From NCBI RefSeq assembly GCF_017696015.1, contig NZ_JAAORL010000001.1, forward strand, positions 682,001 through 746,000: a stretch of 64,000 nucleotides of DNA, in the 5' to 3' direction. Shown in pieces: positions 7,395 to 19,788 of the stretch. The notes under the pieces were generated by a model. The model ran no database searches and was not told the DNA's origin. It saw only the letters and a list, made by a program, of their open reading frames with translations. The translations under genes and the position numbers were made by a program. Each line of letters opens with the position of its first letter. The first letter of the stretch is position 1. Source of the stretch: Prochlorococcus marinus CUG1415. GTDB lineage: Bacteria; Cyanobacteriota; Cyanobacteriia; PCC-6307; Cyanobiaceae.

Positions 7395-7649
7395 TTATAA
7401 AAAAATGCTAATTATCAAAAAGATTATTCCTAGAACTACCGTAACAATTGCTCCATCAACTAATAAGTCTTTCCAAGTATAACTTTTAAGCATCCTTGTT
7501 TTATCTTCTTCACTCATAAGGTTCTTCAACCAAGTCCAATCTAAAAGCTGTGTCAATGCGATACCAAAAATTAAATGACCAATCAAAATACCAATTAGAT
7601 CAATTCTAGAAATATCTTTAGTAAAACTTGTAATAATAAAAAAGTCCAC
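7395..7649 (-). CDS. two-helix membrane protein, 84 aa
   Basis: Two hydrophobic segments (about 16-36 and 63-83) flank a charged loop (LKNLMSEEDKTRMLKSYTWKD). Its start overlaps the stop of the preceding gene by one base. It is the largest member of a four-gene set of membrane proteins, which suggests a small membrane complex. No family recognised. Confidence 0.6.
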   Translation of the reverse strand: MDFFIITSFTKDISRIDLIGILIGHLIFGIALTQLLDWTWLKNLMSEEDKTRMLKSYTWKDLLVDGAIVTVVLGIIFLIISIFL

Positions 7650-7876
7650 TAGTTTTTTTCTTTATTTGATAAAGCTCCAGCTTCTTCTTTGTATTTTTCC
7701 CAAGCTTCACTTATTTTTGCTTTAGAGAAATTTTGTTTCCCCTCAGAGAATTTATTTTTGAGATTATTAAAACTATTTGCCAGCTCTTTTTTTGTTGGTT
7801 CATCAAGAAAGTTTGATGTTAATTTCCATAAATACCAGCTACTAGCTAGAAAAAGAATAAATCCCAGTAATTGCAT
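7649..7876 (-). CDS. membrane-anchored helical protein, 75 aa
   Basis: An N-terminal membrane segment (QLLGFILFLASSWYLW) is followed by a long charged helix (KKELANSFNNLKNKFSEGKQ...). First gene of the overlapping set 7876-7201. The helix could be peripheral to the membrane or coiled. Not recognised. Confidence 0.55.
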   Translation of the reverse strand: MQLLGFILFLASSWYLWKLTSNFLDEPTKKELANSFNNLKNKFSEGKQNFSKAKISEAWEKYKEEAGALSNKEKN

Positions 7877-12219: not shown

Positions 12220-13275
12220 ATGAAGCTTAGATTATTTGAGTTCTATTTTATTAAAGACTATTTAAGGCCTTGGTTTGGTCTTATTTATTCTTTATTCTTT
12301 CTGTTTTTTTTAGGTGCAATTGGCTATCGAATAACAGAGGGATGGGAATGGAGTGATTGCTTATGGATGGTTCTGATCACAATAACCACTATTGGTTTTG
12401 GAGAAGTTCAACCTTTAAGTCCTGAAGGCAGGATCGTAACTGTTTTAGTAATCGTTGGCGGATTGATATTTATTCAATTTACCTTTCAAAAAGCTGTTAG
12501 ATTATTTGAATCCGGCTATTTTCAAAGAGTAAATGAATTACGTTTTAAAAGACTTCTTAGAAAAATGGAAAATCATGTAATTTTGTGCGGATATGGGAGG
12601 GTAGGTCAGGAAATATCTAATCAAATAAAAACACAAAATATTCCAATTATTGTTGTTGAGAGTGATGAAGATAGAAAAAAGATTGCTGAAGAAAATGGTT
12701 TAGAAGTACTTTGTGCTGACGCTACTCTTGATGAGACGTTAAAACTGGCAGGGTTAGAAAAATGCAAAAGTTTGGTCGTTACCTTACCTAATGATGCTGC
12801 GAATTTATATGTAGTTTTAAGTGCTAAAGGTATAAGAAGTTCTATTAGAGTAATAGCAAGAGCTGGAACTGAAGAAGCCGCAAGTAAGTTGAGATTAGCC
12901 GGGGCAAGTATAGTTGTAAGCCCTTATATCGCGGCAGGAAGGGCCATGGCATCAATGGCCTTAAGACCTATAGCTATTGACTTCCTTGATCTGCTCGCAG
13001 GAAGTGAATGTGAAATTGAAGAATTTGCATTAAGTAATGATATTAGTCTTTTTGAAACAGCAGAGAAAAGATCACTTTCTGAACTTGGGATAGGCAAAAA
13101 GAGTGGTGCAAAAATTTTGGCTATAAAAGAAAATGAAAAGTTGGCAACTAATCCTGGAGGCAATTTCATACTTCAGCCAGGTCAAGTATTAATAGCATTT
13201 GGTAGTAAAGAACAACTAAATATTTTGAACGGATTATTAGGAAATCTTGTAGTAGCAGTAGAACTATTAAAATAG
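12220..13275 (+). CDS. two-TM potassium channel with RCK domain
   Basis: 351 aa. The first membrane helix (about 19-38), a re-entrant pore with selectivity filter TTIGFGE (56-62, a TIGFG variant of TVGYG) and a second helix (71-90) make a Kir/MthK-type pore. A TrkA-N/RCK Rossmann domain follows from about 117, with ILCGYGRVG at 121-129 and an acidic ribose-binding VVESD. A TrkA-C domain follows from about 265 to the end. It should be a ligand-gated K+ channel in the plasma membrane, binding NAD(H), nucleotides or Ca2+ through the RCK ring. It lies directly upstream of pstS but is separated from it by an operator region, so it is not part of the phosphate unit. Confidence 0.85.
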   Translation: MKLRLFEFYFIKDYLRPWFGLIYSLFFLFFLGAIGYRITEGWEWSDCLWMVLITITTIGFGEVQPLSPEGRIVTVLVIVGGLIFIQFTFQKAVRLFESGYFQRVNELRFKRLLRKMENHVILCGYGRVGQEISNQIKTQNIPIIVVESDEDRKKIAEENGLEVLCADATLDETLKLAGLEKCKSLVVTLPNDAANLYVVLSAKGIRSSIRVIARAGTEEAASKLRLAGASIVVSPYIAAGRAMASMALRPIAIDFLDLLAGSECEIEEFALSNDISLFETAEKRSLSELGIGKKSGAKILAIKENEKLATNPGGNFILQPGQVLIAFGSKEQLNILNGLLGNLVVAVELLK

Positions 13276-13277
13276 AT

Positions 13278-13316
13278 ATATCAAGAATAATTGATTATAT
13301 CAAAATATCTTGATGT
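13278..13316. promoter_or_regulatory. two tandem ArsR-type boxes upstream of pstS
   Basis: ATCAA-N6-TTGAT occurs twice: ATATCAA-N6-TTGATTA at 13278-13297 and ATATCAA-N6-TTGATGT at 13297-13316, repeat distance 19 bp. They end 70 bp before the pstS ATG. The same motif is found twice between gap and arsR and once before pstC. A lone CTTAATCT at about 13320 resembles half a Pho box but has no tandem partner. Confidence 0.65.
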
Positions 13317-13386
13317 ATTTCTTAATCTTTCCTTTTGGCTTTATGTTTGATGCTATAAATGAATTGTCTTCAACCATAACGATGTC

Positions 13387-14358
13387 ATGAGCATTTTTAA
13401 GAAAGCTCTCATTATTTCTTCTGCTATCTCATTAGTTTTCTCTCCAGCGGCGATTGCTTCAAAAAGATTGAGCGGAGCTGGTGCTTCATTTCCCTCAAAA
13501 ATTTATACCAGGTGGTTTTTTGACTTAGCTAAATCTGGAGGCCCAAGAGTTAATTATCAAGCAGTAGGTTCTGGCTCTGGCAGAAAAGCCTTTATAGATG
13601 AAACTGTAAATTTTGGTGCATCAGATGATCCTATGAAAGATTCTGATATAGAGAAAGTTACAAGAGGGCTTGTTCAAATACCTATGGTAGGAGGCACAAT
13701 TGCATTCGGATATAACTATGACTGCGACTTGAAACTAACACAAGAACAAGCTGTTCAAGTTGCGATGGGAATGATAAAAAATTGGAAGGAATTAGGATGC
13801 AAGTCAGGTAAATTAACTTGGGCACATCGTTCTGATGGTTCAGGTACTACTAAAGCTTTTACAAATTCTATGGAGGCTTTTTCTAAAACTTGGAATCTTG
13901 GTACTGGTAAATCTGTTAAATGGCCTGCAGGAGTAGGAGCTAAAGGTAATTCTGGTGTGGCGGGTGTTATACAAAATACTCCAGGTGCAATTGGTTATGT
14001 AAACCAGTCATACATTAAAGGTAATGTTAAGGCTGCTGCACTTCAAAATCTTTCTGGTGAATTCGTTACTCCCAATACTGAGTCAGGAGCAATAGCTTTA
14101 AATGGAATAAATCTTGATGAAAACTTGGCTGGTAAAAATCCGAATCCTACTGCTAAAGGAGCTTATCCAATAGCAACCCTGACTTGGATACTCGCTTATG
14201 AAAAAGGTAACGGCAGGAATACTAAGGCAATTCAAGATACGTTCTATAAATTGCTAAGTGATGAATACCAATCAAAAGCTCCTGCTTTAGGCTTCGTTCC
14301 TTTAAAAGGGGAAATTCTAAAAAAATCAATCGATGCTGTTGGAAGAATAGGAAGGTAA
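13387..14358 (+). CDS. pstS: periplasmic phosphate-binding protein PstS
   Basis: 323 aa. The N-terminal signal peptide (basic KK, then IISSAISLVFSPAAIA) is likely cleaved near residue 25. The mature protein opens with LSGAGASFPSKIYTRWFF. The phosphate-binding loops are visible: GSGSGRKAFI, ASDDPM and WAHRSDGSGTTKAF, where the S-G-T backbone dipoles grip phosphate. PstS captures phosphate in the periplasm for PstCAB. Here it is split from pstCAB by an arsenate-detoxification cassette. Its 3' end overlaps the convergent arsJ by 33 bp. Two ArsR-type boxes lie upstream. No phoB/phoR is present in the window. Confidence 0.95.
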   Translation: MSIFKKALIISSAISLVFSPAAIASKRLSGAGASFPSKIYTRWFFDLAKSGGPRVNYQAVGSGSGRKAFIDETVNFGASDDPMKDSDIEKVTRGLVQIPMVGGTIAFGYNYDCDLKLTQEQAVQVAMGMIKNWKELGCKSGKLTWAHRSDGSGTTKAFTNSMEAFSKTWNLGTGKSVKWPAGVGAKGNSGVAGVIQNTPGAIGYVNQSYIKGNVKAAALQNLSGEFVTPNTESGAIALNGINLDENLAGKNPNPTAKGAYPIATLTWILAYEKGNGRNTKAIQDTFYKLLSDEYQSKAPALGFVPLKGEILKKSIDAVGRIGR

Positions 14359-15582
14359 TTTAGAACTAGTAAGCCATGCAATAAAAATCAAGGCAGTTGA
14401 AGCATATAAACAATATTGAAGACCAAGAGTGGCATTTCTGCCTAGCATAAATAATAAGCCAGATAGTAAGGTCCCTAATAATCTTCCAGCTGCATTAGCC
14501 ATGTAGTAATAACCAACATTTAAACTTACTTTTTCATTATCTGAATAAGCCAAAATTAAGTACGAATGAGTAGAAGAATTCATTGCAAAAATAAAGCCAA
14601 ATATTATTAATCCAATTACAATTACAGGCCCTAATGATTTATCACCGTTTAAAGCTAAAGCAATAAATAATGGGATAACTGTCAAGATAAGTCCCCAAAA
14701 TTGGACGGTTGTTTTTGTTGGGCTAGTTTTTTTTCTCCATATTTTTCTAAGTAATGGAGCTAATACTTGAAAGAATCCGTAGATTATTATCCATCCACCC
14801 AAGAAAAGACCTATTTTTAAATAATCCCATCCAAATGAAATATCTAAAAACACAGGAAGTGCAACTACAAACCAGACATCTCTTGCTCCAAACAAGAAAA
14901 ATCTAGCACTTGAGAGAATATTTATACCTTCAGACTTGGAAAAAAGGTCTTTAAAAACAGGTTTTCTTTTCATTTTCCCTGAATCTTTAGGAAGACACAA
15001 AGTTAAAAAGAATGCGAGACACAGACCTAAACCCATTATTTCAACAGCATTATTAAAGCCTAATATCTTATATAAAAGTCCACCTAAGAAGAACCCAACC
15101 CCCTTTAGCGCATTTTTAGATCCTGTTAAAATTGAAACCCACTTAAATAATTGTTTTTGACTATTTTGATTATTTTCTTCTGAACTTGTAACTATTGATT
15201 TAACTGCACTTTTTGCACTCATTTTATTTAGATCTTTAGCTACCCCGCTGAGCGCTTGAGCCAACATAACGTATGCGACGCTAAAGATTACTGGCCAATT
15301 ATCTTTGACAGGAATCAACATGAAAAGAGCAATAATTTGCAGAATTGTTCCTATCCATAAAGTAAGCCTTAAACCATATCTTGCTCCTATCCAGCCACCA
15401 TAAAGGTTTGTAATTATTCCAAAAAACTCATAGAAAAGAAAAAGTAAAGCAATTTGCAGGGTTGAATAACCTAGTGCATGAAAGTGGCCAACAACTAATA
15501 TTCTTAATGCCCCATCAGTAAGCGTAAATGCCCAATAGTTTGCTGTGACGACACTATATTGTTGAAGACTAGATAATTTCAT
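14326..15582 (-). CDS. arsJ: MFS exporter ArsJ (1-arseno-3-phosphoglycerate efflux)
   Basis: 418 aa with about twelve membrane segments and an N-terminus typical of ArsJ (SVVTANYWAFTLTDGALRILVVGHFHALGYST). It follows the GAPDH gene by 5 bp on the same strand. In the known ArsJ pathway, GAPDH makes 1-arseno-3-phosphoglycerate from glyceraldehyde-3-phosphate and arsenate; ArsJ exports this unstable ester, which breaks down outside and releases arsenate. The pair therefore removes arsenate that enters through the Pst system. The last 11 codons overlap the end of pstS on the other strand. Expression is probably controlled by arsR through the divergent operator at 16643-16680. Confidence 0.85.
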   Translation of the reverse strand: MKLSSLQQYSVVTANYWAFTLTDGALRILVVGHFHALGYSTLQIALLFLFYEFFGIITNLYGGWIGARYGLRLTLWIGTILQIIALFMLIPVKDNWPVIFSVAYVMLAQALSGVAKDLNKMSAKSAVKSIVTSSEENNQNSQKQLFKWVSILTGSKNALKGVGFFLGGLLYKILGFNNAVEIMGLGLCLAFFLTLCLPKDSGKMKRKPVFKDLFSKSEGINILSSARFFLFGARDVWFVVALPVFLDISFGWDYLKIGLFLGGWIIIYGFFQVLAPLLRKIWRKKTSPTKTTVQFWGLILTVIPLFIALALNGDKSLGPVIVIGLIIFGFIFAMNSSTHSYLILAYSDNEKVSLNVGYYYMANAAGRLLGTLLSGLLFMLGRNATLGLQYCLYASTALIFIAWLTSSKLPSYSSNSID

Positions 15583-15587
15583 AAAAA

Positions 15588-16616
15588 CTAAAATTTTTTT
15601 TCTTTTTCAATTACAAAAGAAGTCAAATCTGCAAGTCTGCAACTATATCCCCACTCATTGTCATACCAAGCATAAACCTTTAATAAATTTGAATTCACAA
15701 CCATCGTTGATAGTCCGTCTATTATGCAACTTCTTGAGTCATTTAAGTAATCTGCAGATACTAAAGGTCTCTCCTCATACCCAAGAATTCCTTTTAAGTA
15801 TGTTTCTGATGCTTTTTTAAATGCATTATTTACTTGCTTTTCATTTACTTCATTATTTAATTCAAAAACTGCATCGGTTAAAGAGGCATTTAAAAGAGGA
15901 ACCCTTACTGCATGTCCATTTAATTTTCCTTTTAATTCTGGAAAGATCTCAGCGATAGCTTTAGCAGATCCAGTGGTAGTAGGTATTAAACTTTGCATAC
16001 ATCCTCTTGCTCTCCTCAAATCACTTTTATAAAAATCTACAGGAACTTGAGTGTTCGTGACATCGTGAATAGTTGTAATAGCACCGTGTTTAATTGAAAA
16101 ATTTTCATTAATTACCTTTACTATCGGAGCCAAACAATTTGTAGTGCAGGATGCTGCAGTTAATAATTTATGTTTGGAAGGGTCATAAAGACTTTGATTT
16201 ATGCCATAAACAACATTAAGTGATTCAGCTTCTGCAACAATTCCTTTGACTGGACAAGCTACTATTACTCTTTTCATCCCTAGAGAATTAAAATATGGAT
16301 TTAGTTTGTCTGGCTTTTTATTCTTTCCTGTACATTCCAAAATAATATCTACAGAAGATTTTCCCCAAGGAACATCAAGGTAATTTTTAAAAGATGTGTA
16401 GGTTAATTTCTTTCCATCAATTATTATTTCTTCTTCTTTAACGTTTATATCTTTCCCCCATCTGCCATGGACTGAATCGAATTCGAGTAGATGAGCAGCG
16501 GCATTCGAATCTCCTGCTATCTCATTAATGTGAGTTATTTCTATATCAGCTCTATCCCATAATGCTCTGAAAACTAATCTGCCAATTCTTCCAAAACCAT
16601 TAATTCCAATTTTCAT
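15588..16616 (-). CDS. gap: glyceraldehyde-3-phosphate dehydrogenase, ArsJ-associated
   Basis: 342 aa. The N-terminal Rossmann motif [16 protein letters not shown] is followed by the catalytic SCTTNCLAP with Cys157 and the paired His184 in TTIHDVTNT. The phosphate-binding TTTGSAKA is at about 213-220. The residue after the second strand is in HINEIAG rather than the usual N-D, which may affect NAD/NADP choice. Its place in one operon with arsJ, divergent from arsR, marks it as the arsenate-using isozyme, not the Calvin-cycle enzyme, though it could serve glycolysis as well. Transcription starts in the 116-bp operator region shared with arsR. Confidence 0.9.
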
Positions 16617-16642
16617 GAAACATCTTAAACCTGACTAATTAT

Positions 16643-16680
16643 ATATCAAAAATATTTGATATATCAATAACTCTTGATAT
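16643..16680. promoter_or_regulatory. two tandem perfect ArsR boxes between gap and arsR
   Basis: ATATCAA-N6-TTGATAT occurs twice with perfect arms, at 16643-16662 and 16661-16680, repeat distance 18 bp. The first is part of an even longer palindrome with 10-bp arms (16641-16664). Both lie in the divergent promoter region, 27 bp from the gap start and 53 bp from the arsR start, a classical place for an ArsR/SmtB autoregulatory operator. Confidence 0.8.
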
Positions 16681-16732
16681 GTGAAATAATATTTTTTTAG
16701 GTTAATATTAAACAATCAATTATGTATAGGCC

Positions 16733-17050
16733 TTGTTAGAGCAACTTAAAAAGATTAATAGTGAGCAGTTTGTTGGGATAATGGAATCTCTTTCTGATCC
16801 AATTAGAATAAATATTCTTGAATTAATGATGGATGGAGAGATATGTGTTTGCGACATAGTAAAAGTTACAGGATTATCCCAACCGAAAATTTCTTATCAT
16901 ATAAAAATTCTTAAAGATTCAGGTCTCATCAGTGACAGACAAGAAGGAAGATGGGTCTACTACAAATTAAATTTAGAAGTATTATCAGAAATTCAAAATT
17001 GGATGGGTAACTTAATTCAGTCATCCAAAAATAAGAGGAATTGTAAATAA
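16733..17050 (+). CDS. arsR: ArsR-family metalloregulatory repressor
   Basis: 105 aa from a TTG start preceded by TAGG; an internal ATG at codon 17 would remove the first helix. The winged-helix core runs from about 18 to 80, with recognition helix SQPKISYHIKILKDSGLIS and wing RQEGRWVYYKL. GEICVCDIV (36-43) holds Cys38 and Cys40, the As(III)/Sb(III) ligands of classical ArsR (ELCVCDL). A Cys at 104 might be a third ligand. It should repress arsJ-gap and itself until arsenite binds. Matching boxes before pstS and pstC suggest a wider role. It lies 80 bp upstream of pstC on the same strand. Confidence 0.9.
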   Translation: MLEQLKKINSEQFVGIMESLSDPIRINILELMMDGEICVCDIVKVTGLSQPKISYHIKILKDSGLISDRQEGRWVYYKLNLEVLSEIQNWMGNLIQSSKNKRNCK

Positions 17051-17054
17051 TCAA

Positions 17055-17074
17055 ATATCAAAATTTTTTGATTT
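17055..17074. promoter_or_regulatory. single ArsR-type box upstream of pstC
   Basis: ATATCAA-N6-TTGATTT, core ATCAA-N6-TTGAT perfect, lies between the arsR stop (17050) and the pstC ATG (17131). Its right half is followed by a T-rich run. It could control pstCAB independently of read-through from arsR. Confidence 0.55.
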
Positions 17075-17130: not shown

Positions 17131-18078
17131 ATGGAAGAGAAATTAACTCTTTTCAAGAATCGTAAAAGATTCGGTATCGAAAAAAATATAGATATTATCT
17201 TCAAGAATACTGCTCTAGTCTTGTCTAGTTTCGTAGCAATAATCCTTTTAGGAATTATTTTAGTAGTCTTTTTTCAGTCATTTGAATCCTTTTCAAGGTA
17301 TGGCTTGAAGTTTTTAGTAACCTCTGAATGGAATCCTGTAAAAGATGAATACGGAGCTTTTACCGCAATATATGGCACATTAGTAACCTCATTTCTTTCG
17401 TTATTAATAACTATCCCCTTGGGCGTTGGAACTGCAATATTTATTACCGAAGACTTTGTACCGAAAGTTGTCAGAGAAATAATAGGTTCATTTGTTGAAT
17501 TATTAGCAGCTATTCCATCAGTTGTATTGGGACTTTGGGCAATATTTGTAATGGAACCTTTTTTTAGAGACTTTTTTGTCTTTTTACATAATTTCTTTGG
17601 TTGGATACCTTTATTCAGTACAGAACCCACAGGCAGGAATTCCTTGTTAGCAATATTGATTTTAGTAGTTATGCTTTTGCCAATAGTGACTTCTATAGCT
17701 AGAGATTCTCTTAATCAGGTTCCTAAAAAGTTAAGAAATGCAGCCTATGGAATTGGAGCTAGTAGATGGAAAACAATATTTTCAGTAATTTTGCCGGCAG
17801 CATTATCGGGAATTATGGCAGGGGTTCTATTGGCTTTAGGCAGGGCAATGGGAGAAACAATGGCTGTAACAATGATTATTGGTAATTCCAATGCATTTAG
17901 TTGGTCTCTTTTATCTCCTGGATATACCATTTCCTCCATGCTTGCAAACCAGTTTGGTGAAGCTGATGGAAGTCAGGTTTCATCACTTTTTTATGCAGCT
18001 TTTGTATTGATGATCCTATCTTTAGTTGTTAATATCTTTGCTCAATGGCTAGTTAAGAAATTTAGTCTCAAATATTAG
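17131..18078 (+). CDS. pstC: phosphate ABC transporter permease PstC
   Basis: 315 aa with six membrane segments, the first at about 30-50. The permease EAA-type loop is RNAAYGIGASRWKTIFSVILPAALSGI, followed by GRAMGETMAV, which is characteristic of PstC. It forms the inner-membrane channel with PstA. PstA follows after 6 bp and pstB abuts that, making a pstCAB operon downstream of arsR. Confidence 0.95.
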   Translation: MEEKLTLFKNRKRFGIEKNIDIIFKNTALVLSSFVAIILLGIILVVFFQSFESFSRYGLKFLVTSEWNPVKDEYGAFTAIYGTLVTSFLSLLITIPLGVGTAIFITEDFVPKVVREIIGSFVELLAAIPSVVLGLWAIFVMEPFFRDFFVFLHNFFGWIPLFSTEPTGRNSLLAILILVVMLLPIVTSIARDSLNQVPKKLRNAAYGIGASRWKTIFSVILPAALSGIMAGVLLALGRAMGETMAVTMIIGNSNAFSWSLLSPGYTISSMLANQFGEADGSQVSSLFYAAFVLMILSLVVNIFAQWLVKKFSLKY

Positions 18079-18084
18079 ATAATT

Positions 18085-18978
18085 ATGAATTCACTTTACT
18101 ACCAGAAAAGATTATCAAGAAATATAGGAGATAAATTCTTTACTTCTTTATCAGTAATTTGTGCGTTGATAGCAATACTGCCTTTGATTTTTCTGGTGAC
18201 TTATATTCTTATCAAAGGTGGATCTCAAATCACACCAGAACTATTTACTTTAGAACCAAATCCTCCTGGGGATGATTTAGATGCAGGAGGTATTAATCCT
18301 GCATTAGTAGGGACATTAATAATTACTACCATTGCTTCAATTATTGCCATACCAGTAGGTGTTGGCGGTGGAATATATTTGGCGGAATACTCTAAAGGTG
18401 GTCCTTTTTCAAGATTTATCAGATTTGGGGTAAATGTTTTAGCCGGAGTCCCTTCAATTATTGCAGGTGTATTTATTTATGCCCTAATTGTCTCAACAAA
18501 GATCTTATTTGGAAGTATGTACAGTGGCTTGGCAGGAGGTATGGCTCTTTCAATATTGATGTTGCCTACAGTTATAAAAACTACTGATGAAGGTTTAAAG
18601 TTAGTTCCTAACGAATTAAGATATGCGTCTCTTGGTGTTGGAGCAAGTATGTATACAACCATATTGAAAGTTACATTGCCTTCTGCGTTTAGATCTATTG
18701 CTACTGGCGTTGTACTTGGAATCGCAAGAGCTGCAGGTGAAACAGCACCTTTGATATTTACGGCTTTATTCTCTTACTACTACATAACAGGCTTTGGAGA
18801 CTTGTTTTATGAGATGGGTTCCTTGGCTGTATTGATATACAACTTTGCTCTAGAGCCATATAATGCGCAGAACAAATTAGCCTGGGCAGCTTCCTTTATT
18901 CTTGTTTTGTCGATACTATCAGTAAATATATTTTCAAGAATATTGGCCGCTTTTACTGAGAAAACTAAGAGAATATAA
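18085..18978 (+). CDS. pstA: phosphate ABC transporter permease PstA
   Basis: 297 aa, six membrane segments. The EAA loop is RYASLGVGASMYTTILKVTLPSAFRSI and then GIARAAGETAPLIFTA, the PstA-type version. It pairs with PstC in the membrane. Gap to pstC 6 bp; pstB starts immediately after the stop. Confidence 0.95.
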   Translation: MNSLYYQKRLSRNIGDKFFTSLSVICALIAILPLIFLVTYILIKGGSQITPELFTLEPNPPGDDLDAGGINPALVGTLIITTIASIIAIPVGVGGGIYLAEYSKGGPFSRFIRFGVNVLAGVPSIIAGVFIYALIVSTKILFGSMYSGLAGGMALSILMLPTVIKTTDEGLKLVPNELRYASLGVGASMYTTILKVTLPSAFRSIATGVVLGIARAAGETAPLIFTALFSYYYITGFGDLFYEMGSLAVLIYNFALEPYNAQNKLAWAASFILVLSILSVNIFSRILAAFTEKTKRI

Positions 18979-19788
18979 ATGATTAAAACTAATAAAAAAA
19001 TACCAAAGAATATTATTTTATCTCTTGAGAATGTCTCTATAAGCTATGGAACTTTTGAAGCAGTAAGAAATGTTTTTTGTAACTTTAAAAAAGGAAATAT
19101 AACCTCCCTTATTGGACCTTCAGGTTGTGGTAAATCAACTGTTCTTAGATCTTTAAATAGAATGAACGATCTTATTCCCAATTGTTCTTTAAAAGGAACT
19201 GTTCTCTTTGATGGAACTAATATTTATGACAAAAGAGTAGATCCAGTTGAAGTAAGAAGAAGAATTGGAATGGTTTTTCAACAACCTAATCCTTTCCCGA
19301 AATCTATCTACGAAAATATTGCATTTGGGGCGCGAATTAATGGCTTTACTGGAGATATGGATGAATTAGTGGAAAGTTCACTAAGAAAAGCTGCTTTATG
19401 GGATGAATGTAAGGATAAATTGAATGATAGTGGTTACTCTTTATCTGGTGGACAACAACAAAGATTATGTATTGCTAGAACCATTGCGATTGAGCCTGAA
19501 ATAATTCTAATGGACGAGCCATGTTCTGCATTAGATCCAATTTCTACTCTGAAAATAGAGGAAACGATGCACGAACTTAAAAAGAATTACACAATAATAA
19601 TCGTTACTCATAATATGCAACAGGCATTAAGAGTTAGTGATATGACAGCATTTTTTAATGCAATTGAATATGAAGAGGGTGATGGAGGAAAAGTTGGCTA
19701 TCTTGCAGAATTTAATTCGACAAAGAAAATTTTTAACTCTCCTAAAGAAAAAACAACTCAGGAATACATATCTGGTAAATTTGGTTAA
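18979..19788 (+). CDS. pstB: phosphate ABC transporter ATPase PstB
   Basis: 269 aa. Walker [10 protein letters not shown] at 46-54, Q-loop [12 protein letters not shown] signature LSGGQQQR, Walker B IILMDEP with the PstB-typical CSALDP, and the switch His in VTHNMQQ. It powers phosphate import through PstC/PstA. Last gene of the operon. phoU does not follow, although many bacteria place it here. Confidence 0.95.

Follow-up and report, generated by a model that had tools for sequence, protein, structure and literature searches.

The principle that an ArsR repressor can act on phosphate uptake genes is known from Agrobacterium tumefaciens 5A. There, ArsR1 binds the pstS1-phoB1 intergenic region in gel shifts and represses pstS1 and phoB1, and arsenite raises both (gel shift and RNA-seq; Rawle 2021, PMC7965956). 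Among cyanobacteria, the ArsR of Synechocystis PCC 6803 seems to control only five genes (arsBHC and neighbours, sll0914), and arsenic represses the phosphate transport genes of this strain (PMC4010505). In the arsR-sphX / gap-arsJ cluster of Nodularia spumigena, sphX, gap and arsJ were more than twofold up in at least one P-limitation comparison and arsR was down (PMC9846622). The classical route is the SphR/PhoB regulon, which includes pstS and pstCAB; MED4 carries a Pho box before pstC, the pstC Pho box of CCMP1375, which has no sphR, was judged non-functional, and SphR itself probably does not regulate most cyanobacterial sphS/sphR genes (Su 2007, PMC1906773). Here we analysed a stretch of 64,000 nucleotides from Prochlorococcus marinus CUG1415 (contig NZ_JAAORL010000001.1, positions 682,001 to 746,000; hereafter the window), in which the palindrome ATCAA-N6-TTGAT recurs before pstS, between gap and arsR, and before pstC. 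Its placement and conservation make it probable, in our view, that an ArsR released by arsenite governs gap-arsJ, arsR, pstS and probably pstC here, and phoBR elsewhere.

Compared with these systems, the window shows both likenesses and differences. As in strain 5A, arsR lies near a pst/pho locus, but 5A has a separate pho/pst2 locus for the formal phosphate stress response (PMC7965956). The motifs predicted in 5A do not fit a 12-2-12 inverted-repeat model (PMC7965956), whereas the window operator is a clean 5-6-5 palindrome. Also unlike 5A, the pstS of the block is the single pstS detected in the window genome, no PhoB ortholog was found there, and export would proceed by GAPDH-ArsJ. The window shares with described GAPDH-ArsJ arsenate-efflux clusters its gap and arsJ genes, which pass the respective models, and the divergent arsR; it differs in that the boxes of its regulator are common to pst genes. 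The Synechocystis protein is likewise a cyanobacterial ArsR of an arsenic-resistance operon, but the available part of that report describes no pst target (PMC4010505). The Nodularia cluster also places arsR beside genes for a phosphate-binding protein, gap and arsJ, and no binding sites are described in the available part of that study (PMC9846622). In comparison with the cyanobacterial Pho regulon, the window genome, in which we found no PhoB ortholog, has an ArsR box in the pstC promoter region instead. Our searches of the literature available to us, part of it incomplete, turned up no description of ArsR sites ahead of pst or phoB for Prochlorococcus or marine picocyanobacteria; Saunders and Rocap 2016 might mention such sites. 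New relative to 5A would be the other phylum, the other operator, the tie to GAPDH-ArsJ, and a box whose target, phoB or pstS, depends on the insert.

The block reads kch, pstS, arsJ, gap, arsR, pstC, pstA, pstB, and the identities that a preliminary description had assigned to ArsR, GAPDH, ArsJ and the Pst proteins all passed curated cut-offs. The arsR gene (16733..17050, plus strand) encodes a 105-amino-acid ArsR/SmtB repressor (PF01022, 62 bits, cut-off 22; NF033788, 92 bits, cut-off 55) whose sequence matches solved SmtB and ArsR structures. It carries the Cys-Val-Cys arsenite site (ELCVCDL type) as ICVCDI, a Cys-Val-Cys present in 121 of the 121 ArsRs of the window and its relatives, and has no counterpart of Cys37, which is the third cysteine in ArsRs like that of E. 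coli R773. On the minus strand, the adjacent genes for the ArsJ-associated GAPDH (gap, 15588..16616; NF033735, 538 bits, cut-off 450) and the efflux MFS transporter ArsJ (14326..15582; NF033734, 555 bits, cut-off 400) identify a GAPDH-ArsJ efflux system. The phosphate genes are all on the plus strand: pstS for the phosphate-binding protein (13387..14358; TIGR00975 above cut-off), pstC (17131..18078; TIGR02138), pstA (18085..18978; TIGR00974) and pstB (18979..19788; TIGR00972).

Five exact copies of the motif lie in this block, as the preliminary description had it, and all are intergenic; the site ranges of that description gave the cores plus two flanking bases. Two predicted operators precede pstS (13280..13295 and 13299..13314); they are conserved in relatives, and their 19-bp spacing recurs at the pstS of relatives. 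One lies in the spacer of a putative gap promoter read from the sequence (TTGATA-N18-TATAAT, 16638..16667, minus strand) at 16645..16660, and another covers its putative -35 element on the arsR side (16663..16678). Both thus overlap this promoter, the layout expected of a repressor. The fifth lies before pstC (17057..17072), in the region where relatives with phoB have a Pho-box-like site.

The earlier statement that the motif always stands in a promoter region did not hold: a sixth exact copy in the window (7802-7817) lies inside a 75-amino-acid open reading frame (ORF) on the minus strand (7649-7876). About 0.3 chance copies had been expected in 64 kb, and 60 dinucleotide shuffles of the window agreed with this estimate (mean 0.35 exact copies, maximum 2, versus 6 observed). 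With two mismatches allowed, the window held 115 sites versus 115.8 by chance, so only near-exact sites are informative. Genome-wide we counted 34 exact sites, five in the block and 29 elsewhere; 23 of the latter lie in ORFs of at least 80 amino acids, one is the copy at 7802, and five lie in no such ORF. At the genome rate, five sites within 3.8 kb have a Poisson probability of 1.8e-8, so the claimed clustering stood. Many copies in non-promoter DNA had been named beforehand as an outcome that would speak against the proposal; we judged the result favourable, the other genomic copies being mostly in ORFs. One of the five exact boxes outside such ORFs, 18 bp 5' of an AhpC/TSA peroxiredoxin-like gene (window genome C1:843943-845958; L260:447-1016; L and G numbers are our handles for loci and genomes), may mark another ArsR target or a chance match.

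Conservation was analysed in 121 arsR loci, comprising 80 related loci, the window and 40 family genomes. The titles of the related loci are mostly Prochlorococcus, the remainder uncultured Synechococcaceae, and the labels 'high-light type', 'low-light-like' and 'Synechococcus-like' derive from gene order, GC content and recall. All counts refer to related genomes rather than independent events, and many of these are incomplete single-cell genomes. The closest named isolate is MIT 9401 (ArsR 95%). In 117 of the 121 loci an exact box precedes arsR at a distance of at most 230 bp; that is, a putative palindromic operator stands at arsR's own promoter. Three of the four misses (L031, L057, L155) are without arsJ-gap and have arsR directly behind pstS, with the box before pstS kept; the fourth (L170) has an exact box near gap, further from arsR. 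The three loci also appear to retain ArsR without its export genes. In four g10 genomes (L160-L163), arsR and pstS are co-directional behind ArsR boxes, with pstCAB next in two of them. On this evidence ATCAA-N6-TTGAT is very probably the operator of the ArsR of this genome.

To compare pst promoters we needed to know which genomes carry phoB. In the window genome the best matches to a Prochlorococcus PhoB query were only 37-40% identical and no PhoB ortholog was found, in a genome-wide search that covered PhoB and not PhoR; relatives with phoB matched the query at 90-100% identity. The query itself has TIGR02154 as its best model, yet falls below the cut-off (214 vs 296 bits). PhoB was detected in 0 of 49 genomes of the window type and in 28 of 32 of the other type. 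Of the named strains, MIT 9401 and MIT 9107 are without detected phoB, and MIT 9302 has it. In the Pho island (phoBR, porin, pstS and chromate transporter), the regulator has PhoB as its best match below the model cut-off and is paired with a histidine kinase that scores close to PhoR/PnpS. We take the porin to be somE.

At pstS, we required an exact motif within 140 bp upstream and counted a locus as phoB-positive when its PhoB was at least 48% identical to the query, so that PhoB-like proteins of 43-44% (G123, G165) counted as phoB-negative. Fifteen of the 121 loci, which had no readable pstS upstream region, were left out (12 of the 81 related loci including the window, 3 of the 40 family loci). 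Among the 69 readable loci of the 81, the box was present in 45 of 47 pstS without detected phoB and in 0 of 22 with phoB; among the 37 readable family loci, in 17 of 17 without PhoB and 1 of 20 with it. As background, the box was absent from all 548 other upstream regions taken from the 81-locus set. The two boxless pstS without phoB (L075, order porin-pstS-chromate; L090, with only 80 bp of upstream sequence) are of the Pho-island type. In the single boxed phoB-positive family locus (L171) the box precedes a pstS-phoB-phoR row, and G200 (L247) is alike in order and box. A further boxed pstS without detected phoB belongs to L083, which has an ArsR of the other type and a PstS 70% identical. 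Boxes not conserved in orthologous blocks had been a second outcome named as unfavourable; they are conserved at pstS and at gap/arsR.

These counts (62/64 vs 1/42) suggested a rule by which pstS carries a box when phoB is missing. We dropped it, since some phoB-positive genomes have an additional pstS, the core copy flanked by kch and pstCAB, and this copy carried the exact box in 6 of 6 cases read (L293-295, L313-315). In genomes with the ars cluster elsewhere, core pstS was exactly boxed in 18 of 18 (L293-295, L313-315, L343-354). The better split, as judged from these upstream regions, is by pstS locus: core or ars-linked pstS is mostly boxed regardless of phoB, and Pho-island pstS is not. 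The suggestion of ArsR control in place of classical Pho control therefore fits the window genome and fails as a general statement, with boxes at core pstS and at phoB in phoB-positive strains; the alternative wording, by which ArsR control is added to Pho control, stood and holds more generally. The opposite generalization, that any pstS carries a box, was rejected as well: unlinked second pstS copies in family genomes gave 1 of 14 exact and 1 of 14 with one mismatch.

Cyanophage pstS did not copy the box, which was exact in 0 of 10 phage upstream regions (10 of 98 matching records). A close PstS was encoded on three viral contigs, two of which include the start of pstS and have no exact box there, while the third ends inside pstS; on six viral contigs with a double box, no query gene was present in the stretch examined. 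On one viral contig, IMGVR_UViG_3300044298_002482 (L274:619-3987), head-tail adaptor and head-assembly genes are directly followed by pstS. The latter matches the MIT 9302 Pho-island pstS at 99% identity, so that either the gene passed recently from host to phage or the assembly is chimeric.

Within the Pho island the box stands before phoB, at about -45, in 24 exact and one one-mismatch case of 25 readable loci, with three more loci cut off. In genus g56, two genomes without phoB (G136, G166) have a box pair at pstS, whereas in G190, which has phoB, the exact box precedes phoB (L219) and the one at pstS contains a mismatch. The alternative between phoB and pstS was thus seen in at least two separate lineages, the high-light type and g56. 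A general boxing of phoB in the family was rejected: among 40 regions, an exact box was found in G190 (phoB) and G200 (pstS-phoB) only, and the other 38 had no exact box, two of them with one-mismatch sites. These loci hence carry predicted ArsR sites upstream of pstS and/or phoB, as in an ArsR-controlled pst/pho locus. Separately, in L154 (3368-4305) and L156 (3344-4283) pstS is transcribed divergently from the gene of an OmpR-type response regulator that shares 43-44% identity with PhoB, and an exact ArsR-type box lies also on the regulator's side (L154:4176, L156:4153).

Before pstC, phoB-positive loci had a Pho-box-like site in 14 of 14 and an ArsR box in 0 of 14, using a Pho-box pattern composed after the sequences had been seen. 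Of 19 loci without detected phoB, 13 had an ArsR box (at most one mismatch), two a Pho-box-like site and four neither; the two Pho-box-like exceptions (L075, L086) are both of the phoBR type. No Pho box was found before pstC in the window.

The genes between kch and pstC form an exchangeable insert. Its left border in the window is a kch-like K+ channel/TrkA gene (12220..13275, plus strand; Ion_trans_2 and TrkA_N/C domains), and alternative inserts up to pstCAB consist of pstS alone, of pstS-arsJ-gap-arsR as in the window, or of a Pho island with arsJ-gap-arsR. In high-light-type genomes an exact box followed kch and preceded the first pst/pho gene in 37 of 38 genomes with pstS first and in 7 of 7 with phoB first (40 and 10 rows, counted per distinct genome after removal of two and three repeats). 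The interval reaches at most about 1.5 kb and may include small genes. The single miss (L362) has a broken pstS and a box with one mismatch; L360 also has a broken pstS and keeps the exact box. In L025 the insert contains boxes and arsR without pstS, arsJ and gap, and pstS is on another contig with two boxes (L358). Two side observations concern the history of the insert. The core pstS pseudogenes of L360 (G059) and L362 (G055) are in phoB-positive genomes with a Pho-island pstS, as if the island copy had replaced them. In G047 (L356:1794-2934), a Pho-island-type pstS with its own upstream sequence lies behind the old post-kch ArsR box, 166 bp off, which would be a recombinant promoter.

From the placement of the operator, its conservation, and its overlap with the putative promoters of gap, phoB and most other pstS, we infer the following mechanism. 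An ArsR dimer would bind and repress arsR, the divergent arsenate-export operon gap-arsJ and pstS, as well as, with less certainty, pstCAB in the window and its near kin. Arsenate would enter through phosphate transporters and be reduced in part to arsenite, which would bind the Cys-Val-Cys site and release ArsR. Export by GAPDH and ArsJ and high-affinity uptake by PstS would then rise jointly. Because arsenate entry would grow with falling phosphate, ArsR would in effect read the arsenate-to-phosphate ratio. Where relatives have phoB-phoR, this operator lies on the phoB promoter and would let ArsR gate the Pho system. High-affinity phosphate systems discriminate better against arsenate (PMC4010505), and a more phosphate-selective Pst made upon arsenate entry would outcompete arsenate and feed the cell. 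Since arsenate entry would rise with the arsenate-to-phosphate ratio of surface water, arsenite might even serve as a proxy for phosphate scarcity, with ArsR as the primary P-stress switch in genomes without phoB and as the upstream gate of phoBR elsewhere; we hold this extension to be doubtful.

The sign of regulation at pstS deserves attention. ArsR might bind all sites and arsenite lower pstS expression, as an activator or anti-uptake switch through which arsenic limits its own entry. At ars-linked high-light pstS, including the window, the boxes end about 40 bp before a conserved TATAAA; the candidate -10 of the window (13354..13359, plus strand, read from the sequence and kept in many relatives) starts 39 bp past the second box. 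This position is activator-like unless a weaker overlapping promoter is used, and the sign there is less sure; a fall of Synechocystis phosphate transport genes with arsenic also agrees with an anti-uptake switch (PMC4010505). Against it, 18 of the 19 boxed family pstS have a putative promoter (TTGATN-N18-TANNNT, a pattern composed after the sequences had been seen) that overlaps the boxes, similar to the situation at gap. By eye, the box also adjoins a putative -10 at phoB and at the core pstS of the high-light type; these arrangements fit derepression. Moreover, Agrobacterium pstS1 and phoB1 are induced by arsenite (PMC7965956). We therefore regard a negative effect of arsenite on pstS as unlikely. 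Between the ArsR boxes and the pstS -10, a conserved CTTAATCTTT-like stretch (window 13315-13345) looks half-Pho-box-like by eye and may be a relic.

Less likely still, the boxes could belong to another palindrome-binding regulator, for instance of the CRP family, with arsR as merely one of its targets. PtrA would be a candidate, and the 5-6-5 palindrome geometry fits CRP-type sites too. We read 20 arsR-negative genomes and set one aside (L196, exact box), whose contig ends beside arsJ and probably cuts off arsR. Of the remaining 19, one had an exact pstS box (G111, L185), as another regulator would allow, and 18 did not; L187, L189 and L198 had one-mismatch sites. The same idea conflicts with the presence of the box at arsR in nearly every locus and with the tandem boxes over the putative gap promoter, as expected of an autoregulating ArsR. 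It also conflicts with the 15 genomes whose loci have 56-69% GC, where the exact site is rare (1-7 per genome) and at least one copy lies beside arsR in each; both sites of G134 and the only site of G144 do so, and no gap adjoining the arsR-side box was detected in L169 or L176.

That the boxes at pstS, pstC and phoB have little regulatory effect and were simply carried along with a mobile ars/pho insert is the least credible reading, since core pstS with an ars cluster elsewhere is exactly boxed in 18 of 18, boxes persist without arsJ-gap, and the pseudogene locus L362 has a mismatch in its box, even though the kch-pstC insert varies as a block, the pstC box decays in some lineages and the other pseudogene locus, L360, keeps an exact box.

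Several observations nevertheless weigh against release of ArsR by arsenite as the control of phosphate import. The pstC box is weakly conserved, with 8 exact and 13 within one mismatch of 36. The repressor proposed for phosphate import is backed by its own operator, the conserved blocks and the recurrence at pstS, and is less well founded at pstC. Pho-island pstS was boxed in 0 of 22 (81-locus set), and the second pstS of G034 (L355) has two one-mismatch boxes only. The exact pstS box of one arsR-negative genome, the upstream position of the boxes at ars-linked high-light pstS, and the small ArsR regulon and arsenic-repressed phosphate transport of Synechocystis point the same way. As to a source of arsenite, the single ArsC-family match of the window genome (L218:1483-1839; C1:487210-487536) passes the Spx/MgsR model TIGR01617 (87.5 vs 75) and is far below the arsenate reductase model (34 vs 106), and Acr3 was not found in this genome. 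Because this protein is Spx-like, we lowered our confidence both in the arsenite-released ArsR and in arsenite as a proxy for phosphate scarcity.

A conserved putative ArsR site on pstS and phoB offers a testable answer to the questions of how phosphate uptake is controlled without PhoB and how phoBR itself is controlled. If ArsR acts as proposed, marine arsenic chemistry would be connected with the phosphate uptake of an ocean phototroph that is very common, and pstS and phoBR transcripts in the field may partly report arsenic load, not phosphate alone.

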